Source: Austropuccinia psidii (Eukaryota > Basidiomycota > Pucciniomycetes > Pucciniales > Sphaerophragmiaceae). From it: a DNA stretch of 64,000 nt. Positions 1 through 60,402 of the stretch are shown here, piece by piece (within the stretch, counting starts at the first letter, position 1; every line of letters begins with the position of its first letter). Under the pieces are notes generated by a model, which searched no databases, was not told where the DNA came from, and saw nothing but the letters and a program-made list of their open reading frames with translations. The position numbers were made by a program, and so were the translations under genes. The stretch is from positions 80,369,785-80,433,784 of the forward strand of contig JALGQZ010000002.1 of NCBI GenBank assembly GCA_023105745.1. The letters are read 5' to 3'.

Positions 1-1891
1 CAAATAGGCCACAATTATCTTAAAAAGAAATTTTGAATTATGCACAACTCATAAGTAATGCATATATCCAAAATTCATCATTTTCAATTTGAGAAAAGAT
101 GAATAACTTTTTATTGAGTAAGTAAATCCATGGATTTAAGACCAGATTTGGATTCTACACAGAAATTCACCTAGGGTAGCTCCATAGAGTGAATAAGCTC
201 AATTTAAGTATTTGAGGTGGTAAAATAGAAAATACTTCAATACCACATCATTAATACCACATAAAAGATCCGTGAAAATTTTTGTTTTTCTTGATTTTTA
301 GCCAAAATAATGGGAATGTGAGAAATCCCATGTTACATATACACTACGAATAGTGTTATGCATGTTTTGAGCACTTAATATCATGGTATTCTTACATGGA
401 CTTTTGGTACACCCATAGTGGATATCTCACTTTAAGCTTAAATTACTATTTTGACGTAAAAAATAGGCAAGGGGGACAAAAGACATCAAAGAGAGCCAGG
501 GTACCCAACTTCTGAGGCCTCAGAGGCGTGGATAGCTCCAGAGCATGGATCCATGGCTCATCTTGGCCTAATTGGTAAACTAAAACTCTTTGGGAACTTG
601 GTTACCAAGTTACAACTACTGTAAAACACCAGAAAATAGCAAATAACCTGCTATTTTGACGTGCCAAGGAGGTAATGAGCTACTTACACTCCTGTAACCA
701 TGTCAATTACTAATGACTTTCCATGGATAAACCCCAAAAGAGTAATTAAAACCCTTTTGGGACCCATATTCATTGATTTACCTCATAGCAACCAGCAAAA
801 CACTGCTATTTGCAATTCTACGTAGAAATAAGGTAAAAACTTCAAAAATTCATTAAAAATACAATTCTTAATGAATCTTTCTGAACATTTCAGGACTAAA
901 GGAGAACTGTATTATCTATGGTCCAACCAAAGAGAATTACAGTTTTACTAGTAAAATTAAAAGTTTTACTTACAGTCCATTTTTGGTTATTCTACGTGAA
1001 ACACTGAATCTTCAAAAATTCACAGTAATTACAACCTGTGATGAAATTGGCAATAACATTGATAACTTTGAGAAATCAATGATTATTTTAGAATAAAAGA
1101 AGATTTACAAGTGTTACTCCTTTTATTCTTAACCATATTGGGGTTGGTAGTCACGTAAAAGCATCAATTAAGTAATTATGATAATCTTACGTGACAACTG
1201 ATGATGCAATCAATAATCCAAAAAGGTTTATTGTTTTCTCACTCACTGGTTTTTCAGTTTGCTCCATGGCACGCCTCTGTGAGCTGTTGTTGACTTAAAA
1301 GAGGCCTCCTCTTGCTGTTTTTTCCAGGAATCATCTTATCAATTTATTAAATCTTTATTACCAACAAATAAGTATTAGTTACAGCTATTCTTAAGTGTTT
1401 TAAATCTTTCAGAATCAATCAGAAAGACGTGAAATCATAGAATCCAACTATATATTGTTGTAATACTGTTATAAATCCTTTTGATCCCTTAAATCCACAA
1501 TTCCACGTCAAATTTCTCTACTTTTATTATCAATAAGTTCTTTGGAGTATTAGTGAGTCTTTTATCTTTAATTCTTAAAGTTTTTCTCTAGTAATAGTTT
1601 TCTTCAAGAATTATCTTTATAATTATTCTTGTAAAAGATAATTATATATTAAAATAATTTTATTATTTTAATAAAAGAAGTTTTTATTATTAAATTCTTC
1701 TTGTAATTGATTCTTGTAGACAATTACTGCTCACTGTTATAATCACTAGTAGTGTATAACACGTGAAAGAAATAATTTTATAGCTATTTAATTGTGGTTA
1801 TAATAATTTTTATTATTATATTTCATAAGAACAGACATAGTACTGTTGATTAATAGTAATATCATCATCAGTTTCATAGTCACATCTTACA
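1..1891 (+). repeat. Family-B LTR, left end outside window
   Basis: Reverse complement of the family-B LTRs at 13614, 34740 and 42964; it ends with the LTR terminus ACATCTTACA at 1891. No primer-binding-site motif follows, so it is a solo LTR or a fragment rather than the 5' end of an intact element. It keeps many ACGT cores (about 453, 658, 820, 993, 1153, 1188, 1428, 1505, 1760), unlike older copies in the window. The sequence after 1891 is a family-C gag fragment, so this LTR probably landed in that element. Confidence 0.85.
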
Positions 1892-1916
1892 ATTCTCCTC
1901 CTCCTCTTCACCATCT

Positions 1917-2162
1917 TCACCTGGACCTTTGAAAATAGTCCTTGAAGTTCTTGGAAACCCACCAACTACTCCTGAAAATGAACTTGATCTTCTGGGCCCT
2001 CTTCCTTCCTTCCTGGATGGTGCTGCTCCTTCCATGCGGGGCCCTCAGTTGAGGAACTGCTGGGGTGCCATCTAGAGGAGCTCTTGGAGTTGGAGTGAGA
2101 ACAGCTTGAGCTCTGGCCTGAGATCTTGTCTGTCTTGCCGGAGGTGAATGTTGAACAGGCAT
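1917..2162 (-). pseudogene. Family-C Gag N-terminal fragment
   Basis: On the minus strand an ATG at 2162 opens a frame starting MPVQHSPPARQTRSQ and running through PTPRAPLDGTPAVPQLRA. It matches the degraded plus-strand copy at 50286, where the same order of residues (PVQHSPPA, VLTPTARDPLD) continues into DRGPP.EGEAPSRRGG. Here the frame leaves this homology after LRA, so the rest of gag is deleted or scrambled, and the fragment is cut near 1891 by a family-B LTR. Role in the intact element: structural Gag of an LTR retrotransposon. I recall near-identical starts in many Austropuccinia predicted proteins; that is memory, not a search. Confidence 0.7.
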
Positions 2163-9100: not shown

Positions 9101-10988
9101 TTATTGGCTAAATTTGAGGGGCTCCCACGTTTATGGAGCTTTAATACAAGTCTATCAGGTCTTTTATCCTCTTTAGAAGTCTTTGGGACCACATTGTACT
9201 CTATATTTTTTCTATTCCAGGTTGTAGTAATGATATCTTCCATTGCATTAATATAGTCCTCTTCTGAACAGGGTTCTTCACATCTTCACTTGATATTATG
9301 TGCTAGTTCTCCTCCACATTTTCTTAATGTTTTCATATAAATCATTGAGTAAGACATATTTGTGTGTAAAGCAGATAATATGTATTTTTTTTTGAGGAAC
9401 CAAGTAAGTGGTTCATCTTTTTCTGAGCTAAAGATGACACTTTAAAAAGAGTTTTCCATTCTAAATATCCATGGATTGTTGGCACATTTGGTGATTATTT
9501 TAGATTTCCACCAAAACAAATCATGTTTTCCATGTTCTTGTCTCATCTTCTAATACCATTTCTTTGCATTTCTAGTAAACAAGGAGTGTAATTTTCCCAC
9601 TGTCATTTCATCAGGTATATGAAAATGTTCCTTTAACATATCAATTGTTGTAATGAACTCAATATGGTTATATCTACCTTCAGCAGAGAGTGTTGGCCAT
9701 TCTTCTAGTTTGGGAATATTTCTTTCAAAGATTACATTTTCTCCTAGAAAAGGGGGTCAAACTTGTTTTTCACAGAGAGCTTTTCTTCAGTTAAAGGCAT
9801 GGTATTTGTGGGAATATGTGAATTTGGTTCATAATTCTTAGGAATTTGTGTCACTTATGCAATTATTTAATCCTTAACTTTTTTATTTCATTATCACTTT
9901 TTTTAGATGTGCTGCAAAAATATTTGTATTATCAACTATTTCCAGAAAGTTTTCTTTCAGATTTTGAAGTTGGCCATCAATGTGATTTCACAATTCATCA
10001 TTCTGCACTTGACAATTTCTCTCAATTCTGTCACATGTGTTGGAAATTCACTCAATTCTGGAATTTGTCACTTTGCACAATTAAGTGAAAGTTTTGTAAT
10101 TGTTTCTCAAGTAATTATTACTTGATGTTAATTTCTTTAATTATTTATCAAATTTACCAATTTTAACATCAATAATGGATTAAATATGTCTAATTTCATC
10201 CATCATTTTCCTGAAAAATTCCTGTTAAGCCTTTCCTTTTCCTTGGCTGTGAGCTCAATAAGGATTTTGGCTATATTGAATGCACTGTCCATGGCTGAAT
10301 GTTCCCATTTGGGAATCCTGTACCCTTGTGGGTAAGGTCTGTGCCAATTAGCTTTGCCTTTTCACTATCCTTAATTTTTCTTGGAACCTCTATGTTTTTT
10401 CTGGGGTCTTTTGGGCTTGTCTTTTGGCTGTTCTTGAGCTGATTTGGTTCTGGTTGATGCTACTGGCCCTTCTTTCTCCAAACACATATAGGGTCATTTC
10501 CAACTCTTTCTTCTGGTTTATGGATAAAAGACTTTGGTTTTTAAACCAATTATTCATTTTTTTACCTTGTGCTTGCAAGAAAAGGGATTCCATTCTCATA
10601 AGAGTTCTATGGTCTTCTCCGACCCAGAATGCTCTTGATGCATAAGCAGGAGGTCATGGCCCCCTGCCAAAGACTTGGACAAATCCCCCACTCATCTTCC
10701 TTGTCTTCTCTTTACACTGTACAAGCTTTTGTACTGGGACTTATATATTTCTATTTCTCTCACTTGGAAGTGGTTCAACCCTTAAACCATTACCTTGAAT
10801 CAGTTCAGGCTCAGAGTTAATTTCAAAGGTTGTTGGTAAAGACCTTGGGGAATGGGGGGAACTCTGGAATTTTCCAAATGTGTCTTTCTTGAGGAAGGCC
10901 TACCAGGTCTGGTCCTGGTCTTTCCTTTTTCTTGTCCAGATGCATCTCTATGTACTGAATAGTTGCTTCCATTTCTGTTATGCACCAT
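9100..10988 (-). pseudogene. Family-B Gag remnant, both overlapping frames still traceable
   Basis: The ATG at 10988 begins MVHNRNGSNYSVHRDASG, equivalent to MVHTRNGSSYSV of the B element at 42403; it lies 14 nt before the end of a predicted intron. Stops and indels break the frame soon after. The overlapping +1 frame is also traceable: SLWQGAMTSCLCIKSILG near 10620-10670 and PYPQGYRIPK...SAMDSAFNIAKILIELTAKEK near 10220-10330, equivalent to the conserved motifs at 19388-20037. Downstream Gag capsid sequence (9240-9800) is badly decayed. No product expected. Confidence 0.65.
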
Positions 10989-11038
10989 TTTCACATCAAT
11001 TTAAGAGAAAATAAAGAATAAAGACAAAGGACACATAC
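10975..11038 (-). other. Predicted 64-nt intron spanning the Gag start
   Basis: Minus-strand donor CCAAAAG/GTATGT (intron starts at 11038) and acceptor CATAACAG/AAATGG (ends at 10975). The Gag ATG (10988-10986) is 14 nt from the acceptor. The upstream reading frame meets a TAA in the intron shortly before that ATG. Length and ATG position equal those of the introns at 42390-42453 and 20038-20101. Confidence 0.7.
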
Positions 11039-13462: not shown

Positions 13463-15246
13463 GGCTCACTCATGGGAAAAATAAATAATCATGAAATTGG
13501 AACTGTTCAATTTGAAAAGAGGCTTATAAAAAATCTTAGAATTCCTTGGGGACCTTTTGACTGTCTTGATATATACATATTATGAAAAAGATTCCATACC
13601 ATTTAGCTTTTTTTGTAAGATGTGTCTATGAAACTGTTGATAATATTACTATTAATCAGCAGTACTATGACTGTTCTTATGAAATATAATAATAATAAAA
13701 CTTTATAACCACAATTTAATAATTAAAGAATTATTTCTTTTATGTGCTATACACTACTAGTGATTATAACAGTAAGCAGTAATTGTCTACAAGAATCAAT
13801 TAAAAGAAGAATTTAATAATAAAAACTTCTTTTATTAAAATAATTGTATTATTTTAATATATAATTATCTTTTAAAAGAATAATTATAAAGATTATTCTT
13901 GAAGAAAACTATTACTAGAGAAAAACTTTGAGAATTGAGATAAATTACTCACTATTAATCCAATGAACCTTTTAGAAGATAATAGTAGAGAAATTTGAAG
14001 TGGAATTGTGGATTTAATGGATTGAAATTGATTTATAACAGTATTATAACAAACTATAGTTGATTTCTATAATTTCAAGTCTTTATGATTAATTTATGAA
14101 AGAAGAAAACACTTAAGAAATAGTTTTAACTAATACTTACTTGTTTTGTAATAAAGGTATAATATGATAATGTGATGATATGGAAAAAACAGTAGGATGA
14201 GTCCTCTTTTAAGTCTAAGACAGCTCACAGAGGCATTCCATTGAGCAAACTGAAAAACCAGTGAGTGATGAAACAATAACCCTTTTTGGATTACTGATTT
14301 TATCATCTGTTGTCACGTAAGATTATCATAATTACTCAATTGAGGCTTTTACGTGACTACCAACCCATTTATGGTTAAGAATGAAAGGAGTAACAACTGT
14401 AAATATTCTTTTATTCCAAAATAATCATTTATTTCTCAAAGTTATCAGTTTTATTGGAAACTTTATCACAGATTGTGTTTTCTGTAAATTTTTAAATATT
14501 CTGTGTTTCATGTGGAATCCTCAAAAATGGACTGTAATTAAAGCTTTTAATTTTACATATAGAAGTATAATTCTTTTTGGTTCTTATATGAACTATAGAG
14601 TTTGCAATTTTTCCTTAAAGTTTCAGAAAGATTCATTCAGAATTGTATTTCTAATGAGTTTTTGAAGTTTTTACCTCATTTCTACGTAGAATTGCAAATA
14701 GCAGTATATGGCTGGTTGCTATGAGATAAATCAATGGATACTAGTCCAAAAAGAGTTTTAATTACTCTTTTGGGGTTTATCCATGGTAAGTCATTAAGAA
14801 TTGACATGGCTACAGGATTCTAAGTCGTTCTTTACCTCCTTGGCACGTCAAAATAGAAGATTATTTGCTATTTTCTTATGATTTACTGAAGTTGAAACAT
14901 GGTAAACAAGTTCCCAAAAGGTTTTAGCTTACTAATTGGGCCAAGATCAGCCATAGATCCAAGCTTTGGAGCTGTCCAAGCCTCAGAGGCCTCAGAAGTT
15001 GGGTACCCTGGCTCTCTTTGATGTCTTTTGTCCCCCTTGCCTATTTTTTACGTCAAAATAGAATTTCAAGCTTCAAGTGAGATATCCACTATTGGTGTAC
15101 CAAAGGTGCATGTAAGAATGCCATAATATTAAGTGCCCAAAACATGAATAAAGCTATTCTTAGTGTATATGTAACATGGGATTTCTCACATTCCCATTAT
15201 TTTGGCATAAAATAGAGAAAAACAAAAAAAATTCACGGATCTTTTA

Positions 15247-17085
15247 TGTAAGGTGTGGATATGAAACTTTGATTAAAAATCAAGTACTTTTCCTGTCCTC
15301 AAAATTTGTATAAGGTAAAATTCAGTTAAAAATAGTATGAAATATTATTTTTAAGAGAAAACACGCCAATTTTATTGTTTATAACTTTATTAGTATAAAA
15401 CAATAATTTTATAAAAATTTATTGTTTTACCAACAATAAAAATTTATCCAAAAAATACTCTACAAGAGATATTTTAAGGCTACAAAAGAAATTTCTTCAA
15501 GAGCAATTTCAATTGGAATTAATTGAGCAAAGAACTGCAAGCAATTAATTAAAGAACAGAGTCTTTAAAAAGAATATTAAAGAGAAAACACGCCCAAAAG
15601 TGACCAGAGTGAATTTGGAAACAAAGTGACAAAGTTAACAGTGATGAAAGATGCTTTAATTCACTTATGGGGTGGTTCAGGGGTAAAAATGATTATAAGA
15701 GTTACAAACAATGGTTATAATGATTTTTTCACGTGGTTAAAAGGTTCAAAATGATTTAAAAAGGGTGGTTGGAATCTTTTATTGATTGGTTTAACAGTTT
15801 TAAACTAATTAATAAAAGGAAAAGATTCTAACATGAAGAGAAAAGTGGGGCAAAGAAGACATTCTTTTATAGCCATCAATTCTCTTACTCCAAAAGTAAA
15901 ATTTACTCTTGTCAGTCGTGAAAAACAGTCTGACAACAGAAAAGCCAATTATGGCATCATTGAACCCTGGTTTAGACCAAAAAGGGCTGGTTTAAGCCAT
16001 TTTTAGCCATTTTTTAGCCATTTTAGACCCTTAAATCAGCCATTACTATAGCAATACCAGGCCTAGAGCCTTCAAAACACGTCAGAATGTGTGTCAGAGG
16101 CGTAGAAACCAGTTAAAACTGTTTTTATTATGATTGTTTTATCTTAAGGGTAGTTTTACCTTCTTGGCAACAGCTAAAACTACCCCAGTTGGTATCAAAA
16201 CCTCATCATCAATTGAGTCCACAGACCCTGTAACTCAATTCCAGGCCAAAAGTGATGAACTTTTGCGTGAATTTTGACATCCCACGCCTGTCAGCAAGGA
16301 TTTTGGGGGTCTAGCTCCCCCTTAGAGCTGGAGTTCCTTTTCCCCCCCAAATTTAATCTTTCCAATTTATTTTTCCTTTAATTCCTCATCATGTATTATA
16401 CTTATAATTTACACATGTAATTCAATTTAATTGTACAGTACAATACAGTAATAATTGACACCTCATATGTAAATCAAAGTTCACTTATGTAATACACGCG
16501 CACATTTTGACATTTCAATTGAATTCAATTGAAAATACTTTAATTCCTCATAACTTCTAAACTAAACACAACACCTCAATTTTAACACAAAAATTGATGG
16601 TTAACACCACATGTGGTGTGAATTAAATTAAGGTTTTGAGGATTTTCAACTTTTGTATTGAAAATACTAAAAACTTAATTTAAGCTTATTTAGAGTTGAG
16701 TTACAAAAATTTCACTCAGAGGTGACCCCACCTGATTTTTTATGAGGAATCCAATGGTGAAATAAAATTTATATGTTTATTTATTGGATAAAAAGTTATA
16801 ATAAATTTTATTTAACTTTTTTCCAAATTTATTTATTTTTTCACAATTTTGTTAAAATTTCATTTTTACTTAAATTTTTCAAGTATAAATGTAATTTTAT
16901 ATTTACAAAATTTAAAGTAATTTTCTTTTTAAATTATAATTGATTTTTTATTTATAATATAATTTTATATTTATATTTTGATTTTTATTTTAATAATATA
17001 AATAAATTTATTTTATTTATATTAATATGTTATTTTTTATATTTTGTGGTCTTTTGGGTATATGAAATTACCTCTAAGGCTCACA
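15247..17085 (-). repeat. Family-A 3' LTR of the young element
   Basis: Plus strand reads TGTAAGGTGTGG at 15247 and ends AAGGCTCACA at 17085. Nearly identical to 20525-22362. Ends are the usual TG...CA. Confidence 0.92.
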
Positions 17086-17103
17086 TTCCCTCCCCCTAAA
17101 AAA
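17086..17103 (-). other. Polypurine tract
   Basis: On the minus strand TTTTTTAGGGGGAGGGAA directly precedes TGTGAGCC, the LTR start; identical in kind to 5551-5567. Confidence 0.8.
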
Positions 17104-17705
17104 GAATATTACTTTGTAATATTGGTGTTTCTAGTGTGTCTGAATCTCCTGAGGAGTTTGGTAGCTTTTGGTATATCTTTTGCTTCTAACCATTTATCTT
17201 TCACAAGTTGGGTCACTGTACCTAACAAGGTATTCCCTTACTTTCTTGGTTCTTAATTTCCTTTCTTTAAGAACTTTGGTTATTTTCCTAGTACCAGATG
17301 TCTCAATAGAAAATTATCTGCCTTTTTTATTATGTAAATCTATCCCATACATGATTAAATAGTCATTTCCCAATAAAAATGGGTACTAGAGCAATTTTCC
17401 ATAACAAAAAAATTCAACTGTGATTCTCAAATTCTCATTTATGTGTGGGAATATGACATTGGTCTCAAAGATTCCTAATGCTTTCATTGGGTTACTTGTA
17501 CTGTTGGGTTTTATACCATCAAGTAGGTGAAAACTTCCTTTATCATATGATCCTTTCCATACTTCATCCAAGGCATGTATTAGAGAGTTGTCTTTACAGT
17601 CTTTGTTCACCAATTGGTATAAGATGTTACAATTGTTATCTGGAATGTAACTATTTCTGACCTCTTCAAAGGAGGTGGTGTTCAAGTCTGTAACACTTAT
17701 TCCTT
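17104..17705 (-). pseudogene. Scrambled Pol remnants (RNase H/integrase linker, protease piece, chromo tail)
   Basis: Directly after gag the minus strand reads IPIEGISVTDLNTTSFEEV, CKDNSLIHALDEVW, FHLLDGI, which in the D element (56567-54873) lies between RNase H and integrase. At HLLDGI it switches to KPNSTSNPMKALGIF.TNVIFPH..ENLRITVEF, which in D lies in the protease region upstream of RT (FSSASESMKPLGII, near 58350). The last part, 17104-17300, encodes a shifted remnant of the chromodomain-like tail. So domain order is inverted relative to intact elements and RT, RNase H core and integrase core are missing. Best explained by two deletions or template switches. Not functional as Pol. Confidence 0.8.
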
Positions 17706-20051
17706 CTATTGGGATTTGGTTTTCATAAGTTGTGCCCCTTGAGCTTTTGATAAATCAATTTGACTATTGCTCAATTGTGGCAAGTGGGAATAAGATTCCA
17801 TGATGTCAAAAGTGGCATTGATATTTTCTATATCTTTTGAAGATTCAGAAAATATAGATGACTTATCATCTGAATTGTCTTCAATTATGTCATCTTTTTC
17901 AACATCAGCTCTCTTTCCAATATTAATTTCATTGATTTTCCCCCTTTTTGGACATGCATTAGCTAAATGGGTGGTGCTTTGGCAAGTATGGCACTTTTTG
18001 ACTGTATCTGCAGATTTATACCCAACATTATTAGAATTTTCTTTGGGGTTTTTGTCCACAGAATCTTTCCAAGGTGTATTAAACCTTGTTTCAAGATTCA
18101 CCCTACTAGAACCAATTTTTGTTCTGGTGGTTACTTCTTCTAATATATTGATAATATCCTCTGCTGAAGATTGTTCAGTAGTCCTGCTTTTGATAGCATG
18201 CTCTAAGTCACCTCCACATTGTCTCAGAATTTTCCTATGGATCATAAATTCTGACATGTCAGGATATAATGCTGTTAATCTGTCCTTTTGTTGGCAAAAC
18301 CATGGTAAAGCTCTGTCTTTATCAGCATTAAATTTGGCAGATTCAAAGGCTGTTTCAACTTTAAACCTCCAAGCATCATTTGCCCATTTGTTTATGATTT
18401 GGGTTTTCCACCAAGTCCAACTCTGGTGTCCATGTGCTTGTCTTATTTTGATGTACCATCTGTGAGCTGATCTGGTAAACAAGGTGTTAAACCTGGCTGT
18501 TACCAATCTGTCTGGTAATTCAAAATCCTCTTTGATCATGTCAATACCTCTAATGAATTCCATATGGTCATATTCTCCTTCACCACTGAAGTGAGGCCAT
18601 TCTTTAAGTTTTGGAACTTCTTTCAAGAGTGCTTGGCCCATTGATGGTTTTAAGTTCTGAAAAGAAGTGGATAATTCATTTTTTAATTGTGAATTATCAG
18701 GATCCAATACTTGTGGATTTGAAATTCTTATGCCCTCATTTTGATTTAGAGGTGTAGACATTCTTGGTAAGGTGTTCAGTATTTGTTCAATGTCATTCAT
18801 TTTACTGTTGCTACACCTTTGGGAATTCCTGTATTCATGTTGGAAGCTTTGTATTAAATTTATTACTTCAATTTTATACATGTCTTCCTTATGTGTCAGT
18901 TCTTGCCATAACTCTGTTTGTCTTGTATTATCAGCAGTGACTTGATTCAACTTCATTGATAATTTTGATACTTCTTCTTGTGAAGCATCAAAACACTTTT
19001 TCAAGGCAATGGTATATGTCTTTACTTCAGTAAATGAATTTGAAATGTCATCAAGGACTTTCTTGTTGTCTGTTTTGATAATATTTATGGCTTGTTTAAT
19101 TCTTGTTTCAATTATGTCATCAATATTGAATTTAGAATATTTATCTGTTAATTCTTTAATAATGGCAGATTGTTCATTTATTTTATTGTTAGAAGAATTG
19201 TCATTATTGGAATTTTTAATTGTTCTCAAAACTTTTTCAAAACACATAAGTGTTTCATTAATTTGGCACAGACTCAGGTTGTTTGTTTTGATGTTGTTAC
19301 AAATGGTGTCATTTTTATCAGAAAGATGTTTTTTCACGTCATTTATAGCATTATAAAACTCTGGGATGGAATCAAATATGTCAGAAATCATTTCTGGAAC
19401 CTTAATCTGGCTTCCTCCTTCTTCTGTAATTCCATCATGGTTCTGGCCATCTGAAATACATTTTCCATGGCATCCTGCTGAATCTTTGGGATTCTGTAGC
19501 CCTGGCTGTAAGGTTTTGGGGCTGGTGCCTTCCCTTTGCCCTTGTTTGGAGTTTGTGGCTGCTTTTTCACGTTGGAATTGCTGCTGCTGGCCACTGGGGC
19601 TGTTTTTGGCACTGGTTTGGGTGGTGGAGGGTTGTTTTTCCTCCATTCTAGTGTCAAAAGCATCATGTTTTTCTTCTCCATCAATGGATGCCATCCATTG
19701 AGCAATTTGCAAGTGTTGGGATGGCCCAGGAACTTTCTTACTGTCAGATAAGAATTCATGCAATTCTTCCACAGGTCTGCAAGGATCTGGTACTCCTTGA
19801 ACTGAAGTGCATTGTTGTATGCACTGTGGCTGGCTTTGTATATGTCCACAGAGGCTTGTTGTGGCGGTGTCAGCTCTTTTTGAAGGTAAAATGGTATTAT
19901 CAGCTTCAGAATGACCCATTTTAGTTGTTTGGAAGTCATCAACTGACCCTTTTCCTTCTGTACCTGATTGGCCTCTGCCATAATCACGTCTATTACCTTT
20001 TTGGGAGCTGCTTGAGGGGTTGTAGCTGGCTCCTGACCTGGTTGAAGGCAT
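17706..20051 (-). CDS. Gag polyprotein, family A (intact, 781 codons)
   Basis: Structural protein that would form the virus-like particle and bind element RNA. The ATG at 20051 starts MPSTRSGASYNPSSSSQKG and lies inside a predicted intron (20038-20101), so Gag is expected only from unspliced RNA. Approximate regions: residues 1-225 are Gln/Ser-rich and overlap another frame; 225-430 is predicted coiled coil (long Lys/Glu/Asn-rich helices); 470-640 is the capsid-like retrotransposon Gag domain with LKEWPHFSGEGEYDHMEFI, RWYIKIRQAHGHQSW and NKWANDAWRFKVE; about 695-708 is a zinc knuckle CHTCQSTTHLANAC with all four ligands (C-x2-C-x4-H-x4-C); the tail is acidic. Its end is truncated against scrambled pol. 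It is the only intact retroelement gag here. The 221-codon plus-strand frame at 17800-18465 is its shadow. Confidence 0.88.
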   Translation of the reverse strand: MPSTRSGASYNPSSSSQKGNRRDYGRGQSGTEGKGSVDDFQTTKMGHSEADNTILPSKRADTATTSLCGHIQSQPQCIQQCTSVQGVPDPCRPVEELHEFLSDSKKVPGPSQHLQIAQWMASIDGEEKHDAFDTRMEEKQPSTTQTSAKNSPSGQQQQFQREKAATNSKQGQREGTSPKTLQPGLQNPKDSAGCHGKCISDGQNHDGITEEGGSQIKVPEMISDIFDSIPEFYNAINDVKKHLSDKNDTICNNIKTNNLSLCQINETLMCFEKVLRTIKNSNNDNSSNNKINEQSAIIKELTDKYSKFNIDDIIETRIKQAINIIKTDNKKVLDDISNSFTEVKTYTIALKKCFDASQEEVSKLSMKLNQVTADNTRQTELWQELTHKEDMYKIEVINLIQSFQHEYRNSQRCSNSKMNDIEQILNTLPRMSTPLNQNEGIRISNPQVLDPDNSQLKNELSTSFQNLKPSMGQALLKEVPKLKEWPHFSGEGEYDHMEFIRGIDMIKEDFELPDRLVTARFNTLFTRSAHRWYIKIRQAHGHQSWTWWKTQIINKWANDAWRFKVETAFESAKFNADKDRALPWFCQQKDRLTALYPDMSEFMIHRKILRQCGGDLEHAIKSRTTEQSSAEDIINILEEVTTRTKIGSSRVNLETRFNTPWKDSVDKNPKENSNNVGYKSADTVKKCHTCQSTTHLANACPKRGKINEINIGKRADVEKDDIIEDNSDDKSSIFSESSKDIENINATFDIMESYSHLPQLSNSQIDLSKAQGAQLMKTKSQ

Positions 20052-20299
20052 AATTATGGTTAAAAAGGCTTAAAATAGTATTTTTACGTCAAAAAACTTA
20101 CTATTGGCCAAATCTTTAGCTTTCTGAAGGGTATTACTTATGTCCAAGTTAATTAATTCAGAAGATATTGGTTCAGGTTGGTTATTTTGAGTCACAATAA
20201 CAGTACTATTATGATCAGAATTAACAGTACTGGCAGGGATAATGCTGGTTGCTGTTGAGGCTGTTTCAATATTTTCTTGTCTTACCACGTTGTCAGACA
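19388..20299 (-). CDS. Overlapping second-frame protein, spliced (family A)
   Basis: Predicted exons 20299-20102 and 20037-19388. Splicing out 20038-20101 joins LQKAKDLANS to QEPATTPQAAPKKVIDVIMA without a stop; the frame then stays open to a stop at 19388. Exon 2 is +1 relative to Gag and overlaps it for 650 nt. Motifs: LWKNCMNSYLTVRKFLG, LLNGWHPL, a Pro/Lys-rich linker with NKGKGKAPAPKPYSQGYRIPK, then AMENVFQMARTMMELQKKEE. The same motifs occur in the same relative frame in B (41646-42389) and D (60122-60402), which supports a real protein. No ATG is visible in the upstream exon; a candidate acceptor TTTTAG/TGTCTGAC at 20300 suggests a further 5' exon that I could not place. Function unknown: the basic linker suggests RNA binding and the C-terminal helix suggests oligomerisation, both guesses. 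Confidence 0.6.
20038..20101 (-). other. Predicted 64-nt intron containing the Gag start codon
   Basis: Donor GCCAATA/GTAAGT (first intron base 20101) and acceptor CAACCAG/GTCAGG (last intron base 20038). The intron holds the Gag ATG at 20051, 14 nt from its end. The upstream exon frame, if unspliced, stops at 20072-20070, 18 nt before that ATG. Splicing removes the Gag start and fuses the upstream exon to the second frame. Identical length and geometry in two family-B copies. Confidence 0.75.
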
Positions 20300-20506
20300 C
20301 TAAAATTAATGAAAAAACCAATTAATTAAGTAAAAAAAAGATATTTCAAAAAAGAAATAAAAAATTTAAGCCTCACTTATAATATGAAAAAAAAATTATT
20401 TTTTATGGATTTTTTGGATTATAAGTATTTTTTATATGTTTTTAAATTTTTCAATATAAGAAAAAAGATTTAAAAAGAGTTAAAAAATATGTCACAGGTA
20501 AACTAT

Positions 20507-20524
20507 CACGGCTGGGCCCCCAAA
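20507..20524 (-). other. Candidate primer-binding site
   Basis: On the minus strand TTTGGGGGCCCAGCCG follows the 5' LTR directly. Family B has TTTGGGGGCCTGGCCATG in the same place (42946-42963). The shared TTTGGGGGCC next to the LTR, containing TGG, fits a site paired to the CCA end of a tRNA; the tRNA is not identified. Confidence 0.55.
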
Positions 20525-22362
20525 TGTAAGGTGTGGATATGAAACTTTGATTAAAAATCAAGTACTTTTCCTGTCCTCAAAATTTGTATAAGGTAAAATT
20601 CAGTTAAAAATAGTATGAAATATTATTTTTAAGAGAAAACACGCCAATTTTATTGTTTATAACTTTATTAGGATAAAACAATAATTTTATAAAAATTTAT
20701 TGTTTTACCAACAATAAAAATTTATCCAAAAAATACTCTACAAGAGATATTTTAAGGCTACAAAAGAAATTTCTTCAAGAGCAATTTCAATTGGAATTAA
20801 TTGAGCAAAGAACTGCAAGCAATTAATTAAAGAACAGAGTCTTTAAAAATAATATTAAAGAGAAAACACGCCCAAAAGTGACCAGAGTGAATTTGGAAAC
20901 AAAGTGACAAAGTTAACAGTGATGAAAGATGCTTTAATTCACTTATGGGGTGGTTCAGGGGTAAAAATGATTATAAGAGTTCCAAAAATGGTTATAATGA
21001 TTTTTTCACGTGGTTAAAAGGTTCAAAATGATTTAAAAAGGGTGGTTGGAATCTTTTATTGATTGGTTTAACAGTTTTAAACTAATTAATAAAAGGAAAA
21101 GATTCTAACATGAAGAGAAAAGTGGGGCAAAGAAGACATTCTTTTATAGCCATCAATTCTCTTACTCCAAAAGTAAAATTTACTCTTGTCAGTCGTGAAA
21201 AACAGTCTGACAACAGAAAAGCCAATTATGGCATCATTGAACCCTGGTTTAGACCAAAAAGGGCTGGTTTAAGCCATTTTTAGCCATTTTTTAGCCATTT
21301 TAGACCCTTAAATCAGCCATTACTATAGCAATACCAGGCCTAGAGCCTTCAAAACACGTCAGAATGTGTGTCAGAGGCGTAGAAACCAGTTAAAACTGTT
21401 TTTATTATGATTGTTTTATCTTAAGGGTAGTTTTACCTTCTTGGCAACAGCTAAAACTACCCCAGTTGGTATCAAAACCTCATCATCAATTGAGTCCACA
21501 GACCCTGTAACTCAATTCCAGGCCAAAAGTGATGAACTTTTGCGTGAATTTTGACATCCCACGCCTGTCAGCAAGGATTTTGGGGGTCTAGCTCCCCCTT
21601 AGAGCTGGAGTTCCTTTTCCCCCCCAAATTTAATCTTTCCAATTTATTTTTCCTTTAATTCCTCATCATGTATTATACTTATAATTTACACATGTAATTC
21701 AATTCAATTGTACAGTACAATACAGTAATAATTGACACCTCATATGTAAATCAAAGTTCACTTATGTAATACACGCGCACATTTTGACATTTCAATTGAA
21801 TTCAATTGAAAATACTTTAATTCCTCATAACTTCTAAACTAAACACAACACCTCAATTTTAACACAAAAATTGATGGTTAACACCACATGTGGTGTGAAT
21901 TAAATTAAGGTTTTGAGGATTTTCAACTTTTGTATTGAAAATACTAAAAACTTAATTTAAGCTTATTTAGAGTTGAGTTACAAAAATTTCACTCAGAGGT
22001 GACCCCACCTGATTTTTTATGAGGAATCCAATGGTGAAATAAAATTTATATGTTTATTTATTGGATAAAAAGTTATAATAAATTTTATTTAACTTTTTTC
22101 CAAATTTATTTATTTTTTCACAATTTTGTTAAAATTTCATTTTTACTTAAATTTTTCAAGTATAAATGTAATTTTATATTTACAAAATTTAAAGTAATTT
22201 TCTTTTTAAATTATAATTAATTTTTTATTTATAATATAATTTTATATTTATATTTTGATTTTTATTTTAATAATATAAATAAATTTATTTTATTTATATT
22301 AATATGTTATTTTTTATATTTTGTGGTCTTTTGGGTATATGAAATTACCTCTAAGGCTCACA
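20525..22362 (-). repeat. Family-A 5' LTR of the young element
   Basis: TGTAAGGTGTGG at 20525 to GGCTCACA at 22362, 1838 bp, near-identical to 15247-17085. It would contain promoter and polyadenylation signals for the element; I could not assign them to exact bases. Confidence 0.92.
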
Positions 22363-34739: not shown

Positions 34740-36608
34740 TGTAAGATGTGTCTATGAAGCTGTTGATAAACAGTACTATAACTGTTCTTATGGAATATAA
34801 TAATGAAAAATCATTAGAACCACAATTAAATAATTAATTAATTGATTATTTCTTTTACTTGTTATAGACTATTAGTGATTATAACAGTAAGCAGTAACTG
34901 TCTACAAGAATCAATTACAAGAAGTATTTAATAATAAAACTTCTTTATGAAAATAATAAAATTATTGTGAAATATAATTATCTTATATTAGAATAATTAT
35001 AAATATAATTCTTGAAGAAAACAATTACTAGAGAAAAACTTTAAGAATTAAGATGAATCACTCACTAATACTCCAAAGAACTTATTAAAGATAAAAGCAG
35101 AGAGATTTGATGGATAGTTGGGGATTTAAAAGATCAAAAATGGATATATAAAAGTATTAAAACAATATATAGTTGATTTCTATGATTTCACTTCTTTCTG
35201 ATTGATTCTGAAAGATTTAACTAATACTTACTTGTTGGTAATAAAGGTATAATTGAATAATGTGATGATTTGGAAGAAACAGCAAGAGGAGGCCTCTTTT
35301 AAGTCTAAGAAAGCTCACTGAGGCATGCAACTGAGCAAACCAAAAAACAAGTGAGTGAGAACAAGAAACCTTTTTGGATTATTGATTGCATCATCTGTTG
35401 TCATGTAGGACTATCATAATTACTTAATTAATGCTTTTACTTGACTACCAACCCATTTATGGTTCAGAATAAAAGGGTTTACAAACTGTAAATCTTCTTT
35501 TATTCTAAAATAATCATTTATTTCTCAAAGTTATCAATGTTATTTCAAATTTCATCACAGAGTGTATTTTCTGTGAATTTTTAAAGATTCAGTATTTCAT
35601 GTGGAATCATCAAAAATGGACTGTAAGTGAAGCTTTTAATTTTACTTATAAAATTATACTTATTTTTGGTTTTTATATGAATTATTCAGTTTGTAACTGG
35701 TCCTGAAAGGTTCAGAAATATTAATTAAGAATTGTATTTTTAATTAATTTTTGAAGTGTTTACCTCATTTCTATGTAGGATTGCAAATAGCACTATATGG
35801 CTGGTTGCTATGAGGTAAATAAATGGATACTAGTCCAAAAAGGGTTTTAATTACTCTTTTGGGGTTTATCCATGGAAATTCATTAAGAATTGACATGGTT
35901 ACAGGAGTCTAAGTTGCTCTTTACCTCCTTGGCATGTCAAAATAGGAGCTTATTTGCTATTTTCTTATGATATAATGAAGGTTTGACTTGGTAACCAAGT
36001 TACCAAAAGGTTTTAGCTTACTAATTGGGCCAAGATCAGCCATGGATCCGAGCTTTGGAGCTGTCCAGGCCTCAGAGGCCTCAGAAGTTGGGTACCCTGG
36101 CTCTCTTTGATGTTTTTTGTCCCCCTTGACTATTTCTTACATAAAAATAGAAATTCAGGCTTAAAGTGAGATATCCACTATGGGTGTACCAAAAGTGTAT
36201 GTAAGAATACCATAATATTAAGTGCCACAAACATGTGTAACACTTTTCTTAGTGTATATGTAACATGGGATTTCTCACATTCCCATTATTTTGGCATGAA
36301 ATTGAGAAAAAAACTTTTTCACAGATCTTTTATGTGGTATTGAAGTATTTTCCATATTACCACCTCAAAGAGTTGATTTGAGCTTATTCACTCTATGAAG
36401 CTACCCTAGGTGAAATTTTGTGTAGAATTCAAATCTGGCCTTATATCCATGGATTTACTTACTAAATAAAAACTTATTCATCTTTTCTGAAATCAAAAAA
36501 GATGAATTTAGAATATATGCATGACTTATGGGTTATGAATAGTTCAGAATTTATTTTTAAGAAAATTGTGGCCTATTTGGGTATGTAAAATATACCTAAA
36601 GGCTCTCA
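34740..36608 (-). repeat. Family-B 3' LTR
   Basis: TGTAAGATGTG at 34740 to AAGGCTCTCA at 36608, 1869 bp. Several sites that are ACGT in the young copy at 13614 read ATGT or ACTT here (35399-35455). Confidence 0.92.
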
Positions 36609-40938: not shown

Positions 40939-42403
40939 TCACCAAGGCCAATCATGTTTACCATGATCTATTCTCATTTTGTAATACCATTTATTTGCAG
41001 TCCTGGTAAATAGAGAGTGAAGATTTCCCACTCTTATTTCATCAGGTATGTGAAAATCTTCTTGCAACATATCAATTGTCCTGATGAACTCAATATTATT
41101 GTATTCTCCTTCACCAGAGAATGTTGGCTTTTTTTTCATTTTTGGAATATCTTTTTCACAGATAGGATTTTCTCCTAAAAATGGGGTTAAACTTCCTTTT
41201 ACAGAAGGTTTTTCTTCAGTCAAAGGTATAGAATTTCTGGGCATATGTGGTTCATAGTTTTTATGAATTTTCTCCACATTTGCAATGATCTCATTTTTCA
41301 GCTTCTGTCTTTCACTGTCACTTTTTGCCAAATGTGTGGCAAACTGATTGGTATTACTAATTATCTCTAAAACATAATATTTTGGAATTCTAAGTTGATC
41401 ATTGATGTTTAAAATGGAAAGATCTTCCATTTCATCATTTTGGGATTGACATTTACTTTCAATTCTGTCACATGTTTTGGTAGTTGAATCAAGTCTGACA
41501 TTTGTCAACTTATACCACTTGGTATAATTCTTGTCATTTCTTTTTAATTCACTTATATGTGATTTTATTTTATTTAACTTTGCATCAAATTTGCCAAGTT
41601 CTACATCAATACTATATTTAACAAATTGTATTTCATCTATTATTTTCATGGAAAAGTCCTGTTCATCCTTTCCTGCCATTTGGCTGTGAATTCCATGAGA
41701 GTCCTGGCCATATTGAAGACACTGTCCATGGCTGAAGGCTACAACTTGGGGAATATGTACCCTTGTGGGTAAGGTCTGTGCCAATTTGCTTTGCGTTTGC
41801 CCTTGCCCTGATGATTCTTGGGATTTTTCTTCTTCTTCTGAGGTCCTTTGGGCTTCTCTTTGGATGCTTCTGAAGCTGGTAGATGCCACTGGGCCTTCAT
41901 CCAAAGCTGGTGTCATTTCCAATTCCTTCTTCTGGTCTACAGATAAAAGACTTTGGCTCTTCAACCAATTCTTTATCTTTTTGACCTTGTCTTTGCAAGA
42001 CAATGGGCTCCACCCTCCTAAGAGTTCTATGGTCTTCTCCTAACCCAGAAAGCTCTTGATGTGTAAGTAGGAGTTCATGGCATCCTGCCAAAGGCTTGGG
42101 CATATTTCCCACTCCTCTTTGTTTTCTTCTCTGAACCAATTTTTGTATTGGGACCAATATATTTCTATGGCTGCCACTTGAAAGTGGTTCAGCCCTTAAA
42201 ACATTGCCTTCAATTATTTCAGGCTCAGAGTTCACATCAAAGTTTGTTGGTACAGAGCTTGGGGAATGGGGGGCAGCTCTGGAATCCTCCAGATGTGTCT
42301 TTCTTGAGGAAGACTTGGCAGACCTTGTTCTGGTCTTACCTCTTCCTTGTCCAGGTCCATCTGGTTGGACTGAATAGCTGCTTCCATTTCTGGTATGCAC
42401 CAT
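40939..42403 (-). pseudogene. Gag, family B (broken)
   Basis: The ATG at 42403 starts MVHTRNGSSYSVQPDGPGQG and stays open for 168 codons to a TGA near 41897. Gag homology resumes in the frame of 42003-40939 after a short deletion near 41870: SIQREAQRTSEEEEKSQESS, a coiled-coil-like region, then KKKPTFSGEGEYNNIEFI and KWYYKMRIDHGKHDW of the capsid-like domain. The start codon lies 14 nt from the end of a predicted intron, exactly as in family A. Upstream of residue 44 of the 42003 frame the translation is actually the overlapping second frame (see 41646-42579). Confidence 0.8.
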
Positions 42404-42579
42404 TTACATGTCAATTCAAGAGAAAATAAGAATTGAAAACAGAAAATACACACCTTTTGGTGGTTGTTTGGCTTGTTCTGTTTTAAATAAAGTACCTCTT
42501 TTAGCAATTTACACTTCAATACTGTCTTCAGATTCTTGACTGGTAATGTATCTTTTACTGAATCTGTTACCAGCTGCAC
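41646..42579 (-). pseudogene. Overlapping second-frame protein, family B (decayed)
   Basis: Upstream exon about 42579-42454, predicted intron 42453-42390, second exon 42389-41646. Splicing gives PPKEMEAAIQSNQMDLDKEE, then LPQERHIWRIPELPPIP. The frame (+1 to Gag) then contains several stops but keeps EIYWSQYKNWF, LWQDAMNSYLHIKSFLG, ELLGGWSPLSCKDKVKKIKNW, and HRPYPQGYIFPKL.PSAMDSVFNMARTLMEFTAK. These align with the intact family-A frame at 19388-20037 (LW..MNSYL..FLG, L..GW.PL, PY.QGY..PK, MARTMME). Unknown function; dead in this copy. Confidence 0.6.
42390..42453 (-). other. Predicted 64-nt intron containing the Gag start codon
   Basis: Donor CCAAAAG/GTGTGT (first base 42453), acceptor CATACCAG/AAATGG (last base 42390). 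ATG at 42403 is 14 nt from the end; a TGA (42418-42416) closes the upstream frame 12 nt before the ATG. Confidence 0.72.
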
Positions 42580-44835: not shown

Positions 44836-47209
44836 TGTGAGCCTCAGAGGTATTTTCATATACCCAAAAGACCACAAATGATAAAGTAAGATACAAATAT
44901 AAATAAAATGAATTTGTTTATATTATAAAAATAAAAATTGAAATATAAATACAAATTTATATTTAAAAATCAAAATTTGATTATAATTTAAAAAATAAAA
45001 TTACAATAAAATTCAAAATTATGAAAATACATTTTTACTTGTAAAAATTAAGCAAAAATTATGAAATTAAAATAGGGTGTTGGTAAACACACGTAAGCTT
45101 TTAGTAAAAACACGTAAGCCCTTACGTGTTTTTACCAATTTATGGTAAAAACACGTAATTATATGTTAAAAAGACATAAGGGGTGGTTTTTGAATGAAAT
45201 ATGGCTATTTATGGCATTTTTAAGGCCATTAATGGTATTATAAATGCAATAAAGGGCATTATTGATTCCATAAATGGAATTGTTAATTCCATTTATGGTA
45301 TTTTGAAGGCCATTAATGCCATTTATGGCATTTTTAAGGCTATAAATGCCATTAAAAATGCCATTTATGGAATTGGTAAGGCTATAAATGACATTAACAA
45401 TGCCATGAATGGCATTAATGGCCTTAAAAATGCCATTCATGGCATTAATGGCCTTAAAAATGCCATTCATGGCATTGTTAATGTCATTTATAGCCTTACA
45501 AATTCCATAAATGGCATTTTTAATGGCATTTATAGCCTTAAAAATTCCATAAATGGCATTGTTATTGTCATTTTTGGCCTTAATATTTTTAGTAAAAACA
45601 CGTAAGGGCTTACGTGTTTTTACTAAAAGCTTACGTGTGTTTACCAACACCCTTAAAATATTTTTGGTAAAATGTTATATAGAATATATTATAGCTCTTT
45701 ATCCAATAAATAAAAATAAAGAAATTATCACACTATTGGATTCCTCATAAAAAATAGAGTGGGGTCACTTTTGGATGGAATTTCTGTAACTCAACTCTAA
45801 ATAAGCTTAAATTAAGTTTTTTGAATTTTTTGTACAAAAGTATGAAAATCCTCAAAACCTTAATTTAATTTGTACCACATGTGGTGTTAACCATCAATTT
45901 TTGTGTTAAAATTGAGGTGTTGTGTTTAGTTTGGAAATTATGAGGAATTGAAGTATTTTCAATTGAAATGTCAAAATGTGTGCATGTATTACATAAGTGA
46001 ACTTTAATTTACATAAGAGGTATCAATTATCACAGATTCATAATTGAAAACTCAATTGAATTACATATGTAAATTATAATAGTGTTACATGATGAGGAAT
46101 TAAAGAAAAAATAAATTGGAAAGATTAATTTTGGGGGGGAAAGACACTCTAGCTCTAAGGGGGAGCTAGACCCCCAAAATCCTTGCTGACTGGCGTGGGA
46201 TGTCAAAATCCACGCAAAAGTTCATTACTTTTGGCCTGGAATTGAGTCACAGGGTCTGTGACTCAATTGATGATGAGGTTTTGATACCAACCAGCGTAGT
46301 TTTAGCTGCTGCCAAAAGGGTAAAACTACCCTTAAGTTAAAACAATGTTAGTAAAAACGGTTTTAGCTGCTTTCTAAGCCTCTTACACACATTCTGACAT
46401 GTTTTGAAGGCTCTAGATCAGGTATTGCTATAGTAATGGCTGATTTAAGGGTCTAAAATGGCTTGAACCAGCCCTTTTTTGGTCTAAACCAGGGTTCAAT
46501 GACGCCATAATTGGCTTATCTGTTGTCAGACTGTTTTTCACAACTGACAAGAGTAACTTTTACTTTTGGAGTAAGAAAATTGATGGCTATAAAAGAATTT
46601 CTTCTTTGCCCCACTTTTCTCTTCATGTTAGAATATTTTCCTTTCATAATTAGTTTAAACACTGTTAAACCAATCAATAAAATATTCCAACCACCTTTGT
46701 TTAAACATTTTGAACCTTTCAACCACGTGAAAAAATCATTATAATCATTGTTTTTAAGTCTTATAATCACTTTTACCCCTGAACCACCCCAAAACTGAAT
46801 TAAAGCATCTTTCATCACTGTTAACTTTGTCACTTTGTTTCCAAATTCACTCTGGTCACTTTTGGGCATGTTTTCTCTTTAAAATATCTTTTTAAAGAAA
46901 TTTTCTTTAATTAATTTATTGCAGTTCTTTGCTCAATTAATTCCAATTGAAATTTCTCTCGAAGAAATTTCTTTTGTAGCCTTAAATATCTCTTGTAGAG
47001 TATTTTTGGATAAATCTTTATTGTTGGTAAAACAATGAATTTTTATTATATTATTGTTTCATACTTAAAAAGTTAGAAACAATAAAATTGGTGTGTTTTC
47101 TCTTTAAAAATACCATTCCTACTATTTTTAAATAAATTTACCTTACACAAATTTTGAGGACAGGAAAAGTACTTGATTTTTAATCAAAGTTTTATATCCA
47201 AACCTTACA
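44836..47209 (+). repeat. A-like solo LTR nested in the family-B LTR
   Basis: Begins TGTGAGCCTCAGAGG and ends AAACCTTACA; flanked by ATATA (44831-44835 and 47210-47214). About 1788 bp of LTR once the 578-bp insertion at 45075 and its 8-bp duplication are removed. It is recognisably family A (same order of landmarks, e.g. the GGGGGAGCTAGACCCCC segment near 46160) but a diverged subfamily. Confidence 0.9.
45075..45652. mobile_element. 578-bp inverted-repeat DNA element (MITE) with palindromic core
   Basis: Perfect 61-bp terminal inverted repeats starting GGGTGTTGGTAAACACACGT (45075-45135 and 45592-45652). Flanked by the 8-bp duplication TTAAAATA (45067-45074 and 45653-45660). Inside each terminus is a second palindrome (arms GTAAAAACACGTAAG). 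The core, about 45190-45580, is made of GCCATTTATGGC, GGCATTAATGGC and TTTTTAAGGCC variants in both orientations. It codes for nothing recognisable: because the core is quasi-palindromic, both strands read as Ile/Asn/Ala/Gly repeats (INAIYGIFKAIN-like). Length, ends and 8-bp duplication fit a non-autonomous hAT-like element; the ends do not match a hAT consensus I can recall, so the superfamily is open. Confidence 0.88.
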
Positions 47210-59537: not shown

Positions 59538-60402
59538 TTATAATTCCTTTTTTGGCTTAACAGGGCTTCTTATGTGAGAAAATGGGGTTGATAAATTTGG
59601 AATATTTGAGTTAGCCTCATCAATTTTATCCATTTTTTCAGTAATAAGCCTTATTTCACTTTGAATGTCATCTTTCAGATGCATTCTTGCTTCATCACTT
59701 TTTTCCACATGGTCCAAAAGTAATTTTTGGTGTGATGAAGTTTTTTCTTCAAATTTTTCTACAGAAATACTTAGTTTGTTTAATTTTTCTGTAAGATTGT
59801 CAATACTCACGTCATAATTGATTGTCAAAGTTTTATCTTTGATATCTTTTATGTATTTATACAATTCTTGTTGTCCTTGTATTAATTTTTGAGTATTATC
59901 AATTAAAATCTTTGGTTTGTTATTTTCAACAATAAGCTTAATGTTGTCAATTTCTTACTTATTTTGTACAACAATTTTTGTTAAAGAAGGTAAGTTATTG
60001 TTTATTTCTTGTAATGATAATAAACTTTTTTTAATTTCTTTTAGAGGTAATATACTATTTTTAATTTCAGCTAAAATATTTAAAACATCTTTGGACAAGG
60101 TTATTTCTTTGGGAAATGAGGTTATCTCATTCTTTGTTCTTCCTTGTCCTTGAATTCCATCAAGGTTCTGGCCATGTTGAATACATTTTCCATGGAATCC
60201 TTTTGTATTTTTGGAATCCTGTAGCTTGGGGAATATGGTTTTCTCAAATTCTTTTTCTTGTTCTTCTTCCCCTCTTGGGGAAGTGGGTTGGCTTGGGGCT
60301 TGCTGGTTGAAGCTACTGGGGCTTCTTCCTTGGTTGCCTCCTTCTTTTTGGCATGGTACTCCTTGATCTTTTTGATTTGAGGTTTGGATAATAGTGGATT
60401 CT
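59538..60402 (-). pseudogene. Gag N-terminal and coiled-coil part, family D, 5'-truncated
   Basis: The Gag frame enters at 60402 (GGNQGRSPSSFNQQAPSQP), stays open through FHGKCIQHGQNLDGIQGQGR to a TAA near 59955, then resumes as 59864-59538 with Lys/Glu-rich coiled-coil sequence (NLTEKLNKLSISVEKFEEK) and PFSHIRSPVKPKKEL. Its 5' end, with the start codon and any intron, is cut by a family-C LTR at 60403. Confidence 0.75.
60122..60402 (-). pseudogene. Overlapping second-frame protein, family D (C-terminal part)
   Basis: In the +1 frame relative to Gag, open from the LTR junction at 60402 to a TAA at 60124-60122: KPQIKKIKEYHAKKKEATKE, EAPVASTSKPQANPLPQEG, a Lys/Asn-rich run, RKPYSPSYRIPKIQKDSMEN, VFNMARTLMEFKDKEEQRMR. 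This aligns residue for residue with the C-terminus of the family-A frame (KPYSQGYRIPKIQQDAMEN, VFQMARTMMELQKKEEARL). The Gag frame is open over the same bases. Confidence 0.6.

Follow-up and report, generated by a model that had tools for sequence, protein, structure and literature searches.

How does the gag gene of a long terminal repeat (LTR) retrotransposon come to have its start codon inside what looks like an intron? The question is raised by element A, a retrotransposon on the minus strand of a 64,000-nucleotide (nt) stretch of the Austropuccinia psidii genome (contig JALGQZ010000002.1, positions 80,369,785 to 80,433,784; here, the window, in whose coordinates all positions are given). 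A preliminary description of the window had proposed that splicing of a short intron picks between Gag and a second, overlapping protein. In our analysis, the two maintained, overlapping proteins are well supported and the intron geometry agrees with that description, whereas the choice by splicing is a proposal whose mechanism is refined here. We consider it fairly probable that the intron acts as a start-codon switch: in unspliced RNA, a scanning ribosome would meet the gag AUG first and make Gag, while in spliced RNA the gag AUG would be lost and the next AUGs, which lie in another frame (frame 2), would give the second protein. The features on which this reading is based are as follows.

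20038..20101, minus strand: predicted 64-nt intron of family A (GTAAGT...CAACCAG), holding the gag ATG
20049..20051, minus strand: gag start codon of family A, inside the predicted intron (open reading frame and splice signals)
42390..42453, minus strand: predicted 64-nt intron of copy B2 (GTGTGT...CAG), gag ATG at 42403
10975..11038, minus strand: predicted 64-nt intron of copy B1 (GTATGT...CAG), gag ATG at 10988
17706..20051, minus strand: gag open reading frame of element A, 781 codons, with a weak zinc-knuckle match

The geometry first described for element A holds in every part. The canonical intron (20101-20038) contains the gag ATG, at 20051, 14 nt before the end of the acceptor. Read without splicing, the upstream exon frame is open from 20321 and stops at a TAA (20072-20070) 18 nt before the gag ATG; read with splicing, it enters a second frame that runs 650 nt inside gag, to a TGA at 19390-19388. 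The family-B copies B1 and B2, which had been said to share this arrangement, do so: each intron has 64 nt, an ATG at -14 and an in-frame stop 12 nt upstream of the ATG, and B2 has an additional TAA immediately 5' of the gag ATG. The introns align without gaps and differ at 15 of 64 positions between B1 and B2, at 33 between A and B2, and at 39 between A and B1. The assertion that such agreement exceeds chance is also upheld, since in all three copies the sole GT[AG][ATG]G motif in the 161 nt ending at the acceptor is the one that yields exactly 64 nt. Donors (GTAAGT, GTGTGT, and GTATGT), the CAG acceptor, and length are in all three copies those of a spliceosomal intron, and the acceptor lies in gag codons 4 and 5 (ACC AGR in A and B2, AAC AGA in B1). 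Splicing of this predicted intron is likely.

Is the frame that splicing would reach a maintained one? Two further features bear on this, and the evidence for conservation was drawn from the copies in the window and from public proteins.

19388..20035, minus strand: frame 2, 215 codons plus stop, overprinted on gag; first in-frame ATG at 19981
60125..60322, minus strand: family-C remnant with the end of frame 2 overlapping gag, 57% identity to A over 67 residues; it lacks the 5' part, i.e., the place where the intron would be

Frame 2 encodes a real protein: a homology search (E ≤ 0.001) gave 604 matches, the best 120 of which are all hypothetical proteins of A. psidii MF-1; 47 of the 120 listed were aligned with the window frame. 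Between families, frame 2 matches with E values of 7e-20 (A-B2), 5e-15 (A-C), and 2e-12 (A-B1), and the gag frame of the same region with 1.5e-6 (A-C) and 0.013 (A-B2). Because the first codon position of gag is the third position of frame 2, selection on the two frames can be told apart by codon position in local alignments between families; the overlap blocks used are 103 to 121 nt long and come from the C-terminal end of the overlap only. Within the overlap, gag positions 1, 2, and 3 are changed at 15/39, 10/39, and 3/39 sites (A-C), 19/41, 10/40, and 9/40 sites (A-B2), and 19/35, 8/34, and 8/34 sites (A-B1). Elsewhere in gag, changes are most frequent at position 3 (81/175, 84/171, and 76/168 for A-C, A-B2, and A-B1), with position 1 at 50/174, 59/171, and 58/169. 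For position 3 versus position 1, Fisher p values range from 0.0009 to 0.045 across six comparisons, which are not independent, as A takes part in every one. By this pattern, frame 2 is under purifying selection in the C-terminal part of the overlap, and we are close to certain that, in the part tested, two overlapping frames are under selection.

The openness of the frames is weaker evidence than the codon-position test. Among 20,000 synonymous resamplings with an unchanged Gag protein, frame 2 remains open in 1,763, while the gag frame is open in none of 20,000 when frame 2 is fixed. The former number suits the view that frame 2 and its splice signals arose by accident in an AT-rich element and that gene finders produced the public proteins as artefacts; so do the public models, which appear to be ab initio predictions with many ad hoc introns. 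Such an accident is nevertheless extremely improbable, given the reversed codon-position pattern in three family pairs, the homology of frame 2 across families, and the identical intron geometry in three of three copies. The latter number bears on another idea. The stop of frame 2 overlaps a gag-frame ATG (as ATGA) in A (19388-19391, ATG 19391), B2 (41649), and B1 (about 10206). Spliced RNA might thus give the second protein and then a shorter Gag restarting at the ATGA, so that the 221-residue Gag extension would be of little use. We regard this as very unlikely: an ATGA is cheap by chance (a TGA stop after A) and does not exist in family C, and the zero count argues that the frame of the extension is maintained.

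As to what frame 2 encodes, we propose an accessory protein of the element. A Pfam search with frame 2 (E 0.1) returned no family, and a scan of viral and prokaryote contigs confirmed no relative. For P0001, a public spliced model, prediction from an alignment of 48 rows gives a helical but weak structure (mean pLDDT 61, pTM 0.32), with mostly low confidence in the part from the exon upstream of the 64-nt intron (exon 2); a PDB fold search with it had no match at E ≤ 0.001 and gives no function.

How would ribosomes find the two start codons? The sequence 5' of the gag ATG offers an answer.

20052..21110, minus strand: ATG-free stretch of 1,059 nt 5' of the gag ATG (ATG count versus shuffles)
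21142..21148, minus strand: TATA-like box (TATAAAA), candidate promoter by motif
20102..20299, minus strand: exon 2, open frame of 66 codons without ATG; its peptide also occurs in public models

In element A, the stretch 20052..21110 contains no ATG, compared to a mean of 13.5 and a minimum of 3 in 2,000 dinucleotide shuffles, and its antisense strand contains 19. No longer ATG-free run exists on either strand of the window, and the three that come next in length (711, 633, and 625 nt) belong to LTRs of family B, family B, and family A, respectively. The run starts 38 nt downstream of the first base (21148) of TATAAAA, which we take to be a putative TATA-like promoter motif, and its boundary is an ATG at 21111. 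As a control, gag outside the overlap shows no depletion (45 ATGs, 48.0 expected). Past the acceptor, the two earliest ATGs are in frame 2 in all three copies (at +57 and +99 in A, at +3 and +30 in both B2 and B1), and the first of them has a purine at -3 and a G at +4; Met is kept at the site of ATG 19981 in 30 of 34 public models with KVID[VM]. Assuming that transcription begins near the TATA-like box and that ribosomes scan from there, no AUG would precede that of gag over these 1,059 nt, so that unspliced RNA would be translated into Gag. Only a fraction of the transcripts would be spliced at the 64-nt intron.

Long ATG-free stretches are also found in family-B LTR copies, at 1267-1978 (plus strand), 13602-14235 (minus strand), and 34814-35325 (minus strand). 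Because of these, low ATG content may be common to the LTRs of both families A and B.

Exon 2 had been thought to feed its own reading frame into frame 2. In element A the frame is indeed continuous, but the exon has no ATG (4.6 expected), and frame 2 is interrupted in B1 and B2. Exon 2 is open only in the phase matching the spliced product, as are 26 of 5,000 shuffles. With an ATG-free exon 2, the simplest switch is therefore one in which the gag AUG is lost and the later frame 2 AUGs are exposed. Such a swap would explain why the gag AUG is placed in the intron and the acceptor written in gag codons, and also why exon 2 is free of ATG, as an ATG there would interfere with Gag.

The same order of AUGs fits leaky scanning as well. 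Here, a single unspliced RNA would serve for both proteins, Gag starting at the first AUG and ribosomes that bypass it starting frame 2, with no need of an intron. The frame 2 phase of the next two ATGs past the acceptor and the context of the first of these (purine at -3, G at +4) suit this explanation, as does the gag ATG, whose +4 position is occupied by C in A and whose -3 position is occupied by T in B2. Leaky scanning leaves unexplained, however, a canonical 64-nt intron whose sole good donor is equally spaced in two families, and an exon 2 that is open in the phase fitting the spliced frame only; we consider it unlikely.

The start-codon switch also has to be set against an ordinary gag intron, and for this the public gene models have to be considered. 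Exon 2 appears in them as SDNVVRQENIETAS...LAN. A 13-residue match that allowed as many as 6 mismatches served to sort the models and kept 134 of 219 to 223 proteins; the sorting is rough, in that at least P0017, P0048, P0073, and P0081 are counted although their match lies outside exon 2, and 38 of the 134 fall under "other." A second homologue search listed the best 120 of 159, and another protein search gave 4 proteins. If splicing used an acceptor that lies 5 nt farther downstream, the intron would be 69 nt long, a multiple of three, and exon 2 would be fused in frame to Gag, making it longer, with frame 2 as a by-product of the first acceptor. About 44 of the 134 models continue from exon 2 into the Gag frame at the downstream acceptor (RASYNPSS), compared to 49 that use the first one. 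These junctions are weak evidence for either acceptor, because the models hold other introns that skip broken stretches. Furthermore, an AG at +5 is lacking in both family-B copies, A and B resemble each other over the initial 10 codons of Gag (MPSTRSGASY and MVHTRNGSSY), which are partly intronic, and frame 2 is under selection. An ordinary gag intron is thus quite improbable.

Besides the chance openness of frame 2, the AUG order common to leaky scanning, and the 44 models just mentioned, several observations weigh against the start-codon switch. (i) In element A, the part of the LTR that precedes the TATA-like box also has slightly few ATGs (19, 25.9 expected), and between LTR end and gag ATG the family-B depletion is not significant (3 versus 6.6 expected in B2, 6 versus 8.8 in B1). 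(ii) Past the junction, frame 2 has stops in B2 at 42234, 42216, 42198, and 42042, and B1 has more; within the window, the spliced frame is intact in family A only. The B2 stop at 42198 has a B1 counterpart near 10784, out of register through a 1-nt deletion, and may predate the decay of single copies. (iii) The likeness of A and B over the first 10 codons of gag does not extend to frame 2. A stop common to B1 and B2 in the junction frame had been considered and was dropped: the sites correspond, but that of B1 is out of register. Three other A-type LTRs (91 to 96% identity) have 1 or 2 ATGs where element A has none.

Can exon 2 itself be translated? A further predicted intron in the leader of element A would make this possible.

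20300..20376, minus strand: candidate leader intron 1, family A only (A|GTGAGG...TTTTAG|TG); the predicted junction would give ATG TCT GAC

Removal of this intron may create an AUG (A|UG) at the junction and add the 66-residue exon 2 peptide to the second protein. In such a double start-codon switch, intron 1 would create an AUG, and the 64-nt intron would delete the gag AUG and shift the frame; doubly spliced RNA would encode a second protein, some 280 residues long and overprinted on gag, unspliced RNA would encode Gag, and the leader would be purged of AUGs. We put this forward tentatively, as possible rather than probable. In family A, A|GTGAGG at 20376 is the top-scoring donor between the TATA-like box and the TTTTAG|TG acceptor. 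By a rough count, 50 of the 134 public models begin as partial models right after the acceptor TTTTAG|TG TCT GAC. A split start codon (A|TG) could explain them, because gene finders presumably seldom model a split start. B2 has an acceptor-like TCTCTAG|TGTC in the same phase as the A acceptor, which is altered in B1. No intron 1 donor common to the family-B copies was found; the best candidate close to the end of the LTR, at 42999, occurs in B2 alone.

Two other starts for exon 2 were rejected. At 20293-20296 (minus strand), the window copy has GTG within AACGTGG, which is often ATG in public copies, whose gene models then start there (MVRQ models). Among 51 public models from the partial start, codon 5 of exon 2 is Val in 40 and Met in 5; CpG decay (AACGTGG to AACATGG) would produce the Met. 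With GTG in the window copy and Val in 40 of 51 models, the ATG at codon 5 was discarded as a start. Public model P0196 joins an LTR exon ending in TTTTGG A to the TG TCT GAC acceptor (21165 to 20300, minus strand), reading ...FWMSDNVV; its LTR donor (21165), which in the window copy lies upstream of the TATA-like box, was discarded as well.

What kind of element carries this arrangement?

15247..22362, minus strand: element A, LTR retrotransposon (LTR pair, edges TGTGAG...CTTACA, gag and pol remnants)
20525..22362, minus strand: 5' LTR of element A (LTR alignment)
15247..17085, minus strand: 3' LTR of element A (LTR alignment)

Its LTRs of about 1,840 nt each differ by 5 mismatches and one 1-nt gap, have TG...CA ends, and are flanked by TAAAA on either side of the element, the target duplication of an LTR retrotransposon. 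Judging from these data, element A is young. Its gag is intact at 781 codons, with zinc-knuckle matches at residues 685-702 that fall under the Pfam cut-offs, and its pol is mostly deleted, the region between gag and the 3' LTR (17088-17705) holding pol fragments only. Because it is young yet has only pol fragments left, element A is probably mobilised by enzymes of other copies. The Ty3/Gypsy pol order of reverse transcriptase (RT), RNase H, and integrase is found in related copies in the window rather than in element A itself: a family-C copy has RT (58035-57466) before integrase (56567-54876) on the minus strand, and family B has RT and RNase H at 39454-38228. A purine tract, AGGGGGAGGGAA, a candidate polypurine tract, is located immediately 5' of the 3' LTR of element A, and TTTGGGGGCCCAG, a putative primer-binding site to which no tRNA was matched, just past the 5' LTR. 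Elsewhere in the window, positions 45183-45602 form an array that repeats roughly every 21 nt; read on the minus strand, it contains a repetitive frame of 163 codons.

More than 90% of the myrtle-rust genome consists of transposable elements, mainly Gypsy, according to part of the published genome paper (PMC8063080), which also reports 29.4 GB of RNA-seq data, and the word "intron" is missing from its main text as far as that part goes. In the open-licence literature, we found no paper that describes an intron containing a Gag start codon, nor one that describes an overprinted second protein in a Gypsy gag, which does not prove absence. An LTR retrotransposon has to apportion its output between Gag and other products, and its transcripts between genomic RNA and mRNA. 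If the start-codon switch is true, the intron with the Gag start would mark the Gag-making RNA, and a single splice event would switch the same RNA to another protein; if the double switch is true, two proteins would come from one DNA stretch, and splicing alone would select between them. A further consequence is that many of the hypothetical proteins annotated in A. psidii are a conserved retrotransposon protein encoded in the second frame of gag.

Splice-controlled output is already known for LTR elements and retroviruses. In Drosophila copia and plant Ogre elements, the latter with an extra open reading frame near gag, intron use sets the protein output; these introns separate gag from pol functions and are not known to contain a gag start codon, unlike the predicted intron of element A. 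An AUG formed at a splice junction, as proposed here for candidate intron 1, is known from EBNA-LP of Epstein-Barr virus, an unrelated DNA virus that is not known to lose a second start codon in exchange. Overprinted viral genes encode two proteins from a single stretch read in different frames, and the codon-position pattern of the gag/frame 2 overlap resembles theirs, whereas access to frame 2 would come from splicing out the first start codon. For Arabidopsis EVD/ATCOPIA93 (Ty1/Copia), part of the published account (PMC8892269) describes a spliced, prematurely ended RNA that gives GAG and an unspliced RNA that gives GAG-POL. As proposed for element A, unspliced and spliced RNAs of one LTR element thus encode different products, but in element A splicing would delete the Gag start and yield a protein in another frame of gag. 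In Rev and Rtm of caprine arthritis encephalitis virus (CAEV), alternative splice sites link a common leading part to different frames, as reported in PMC2291067. These two products share the env start codon, whereas in element A splicing would remove the start codon itself.

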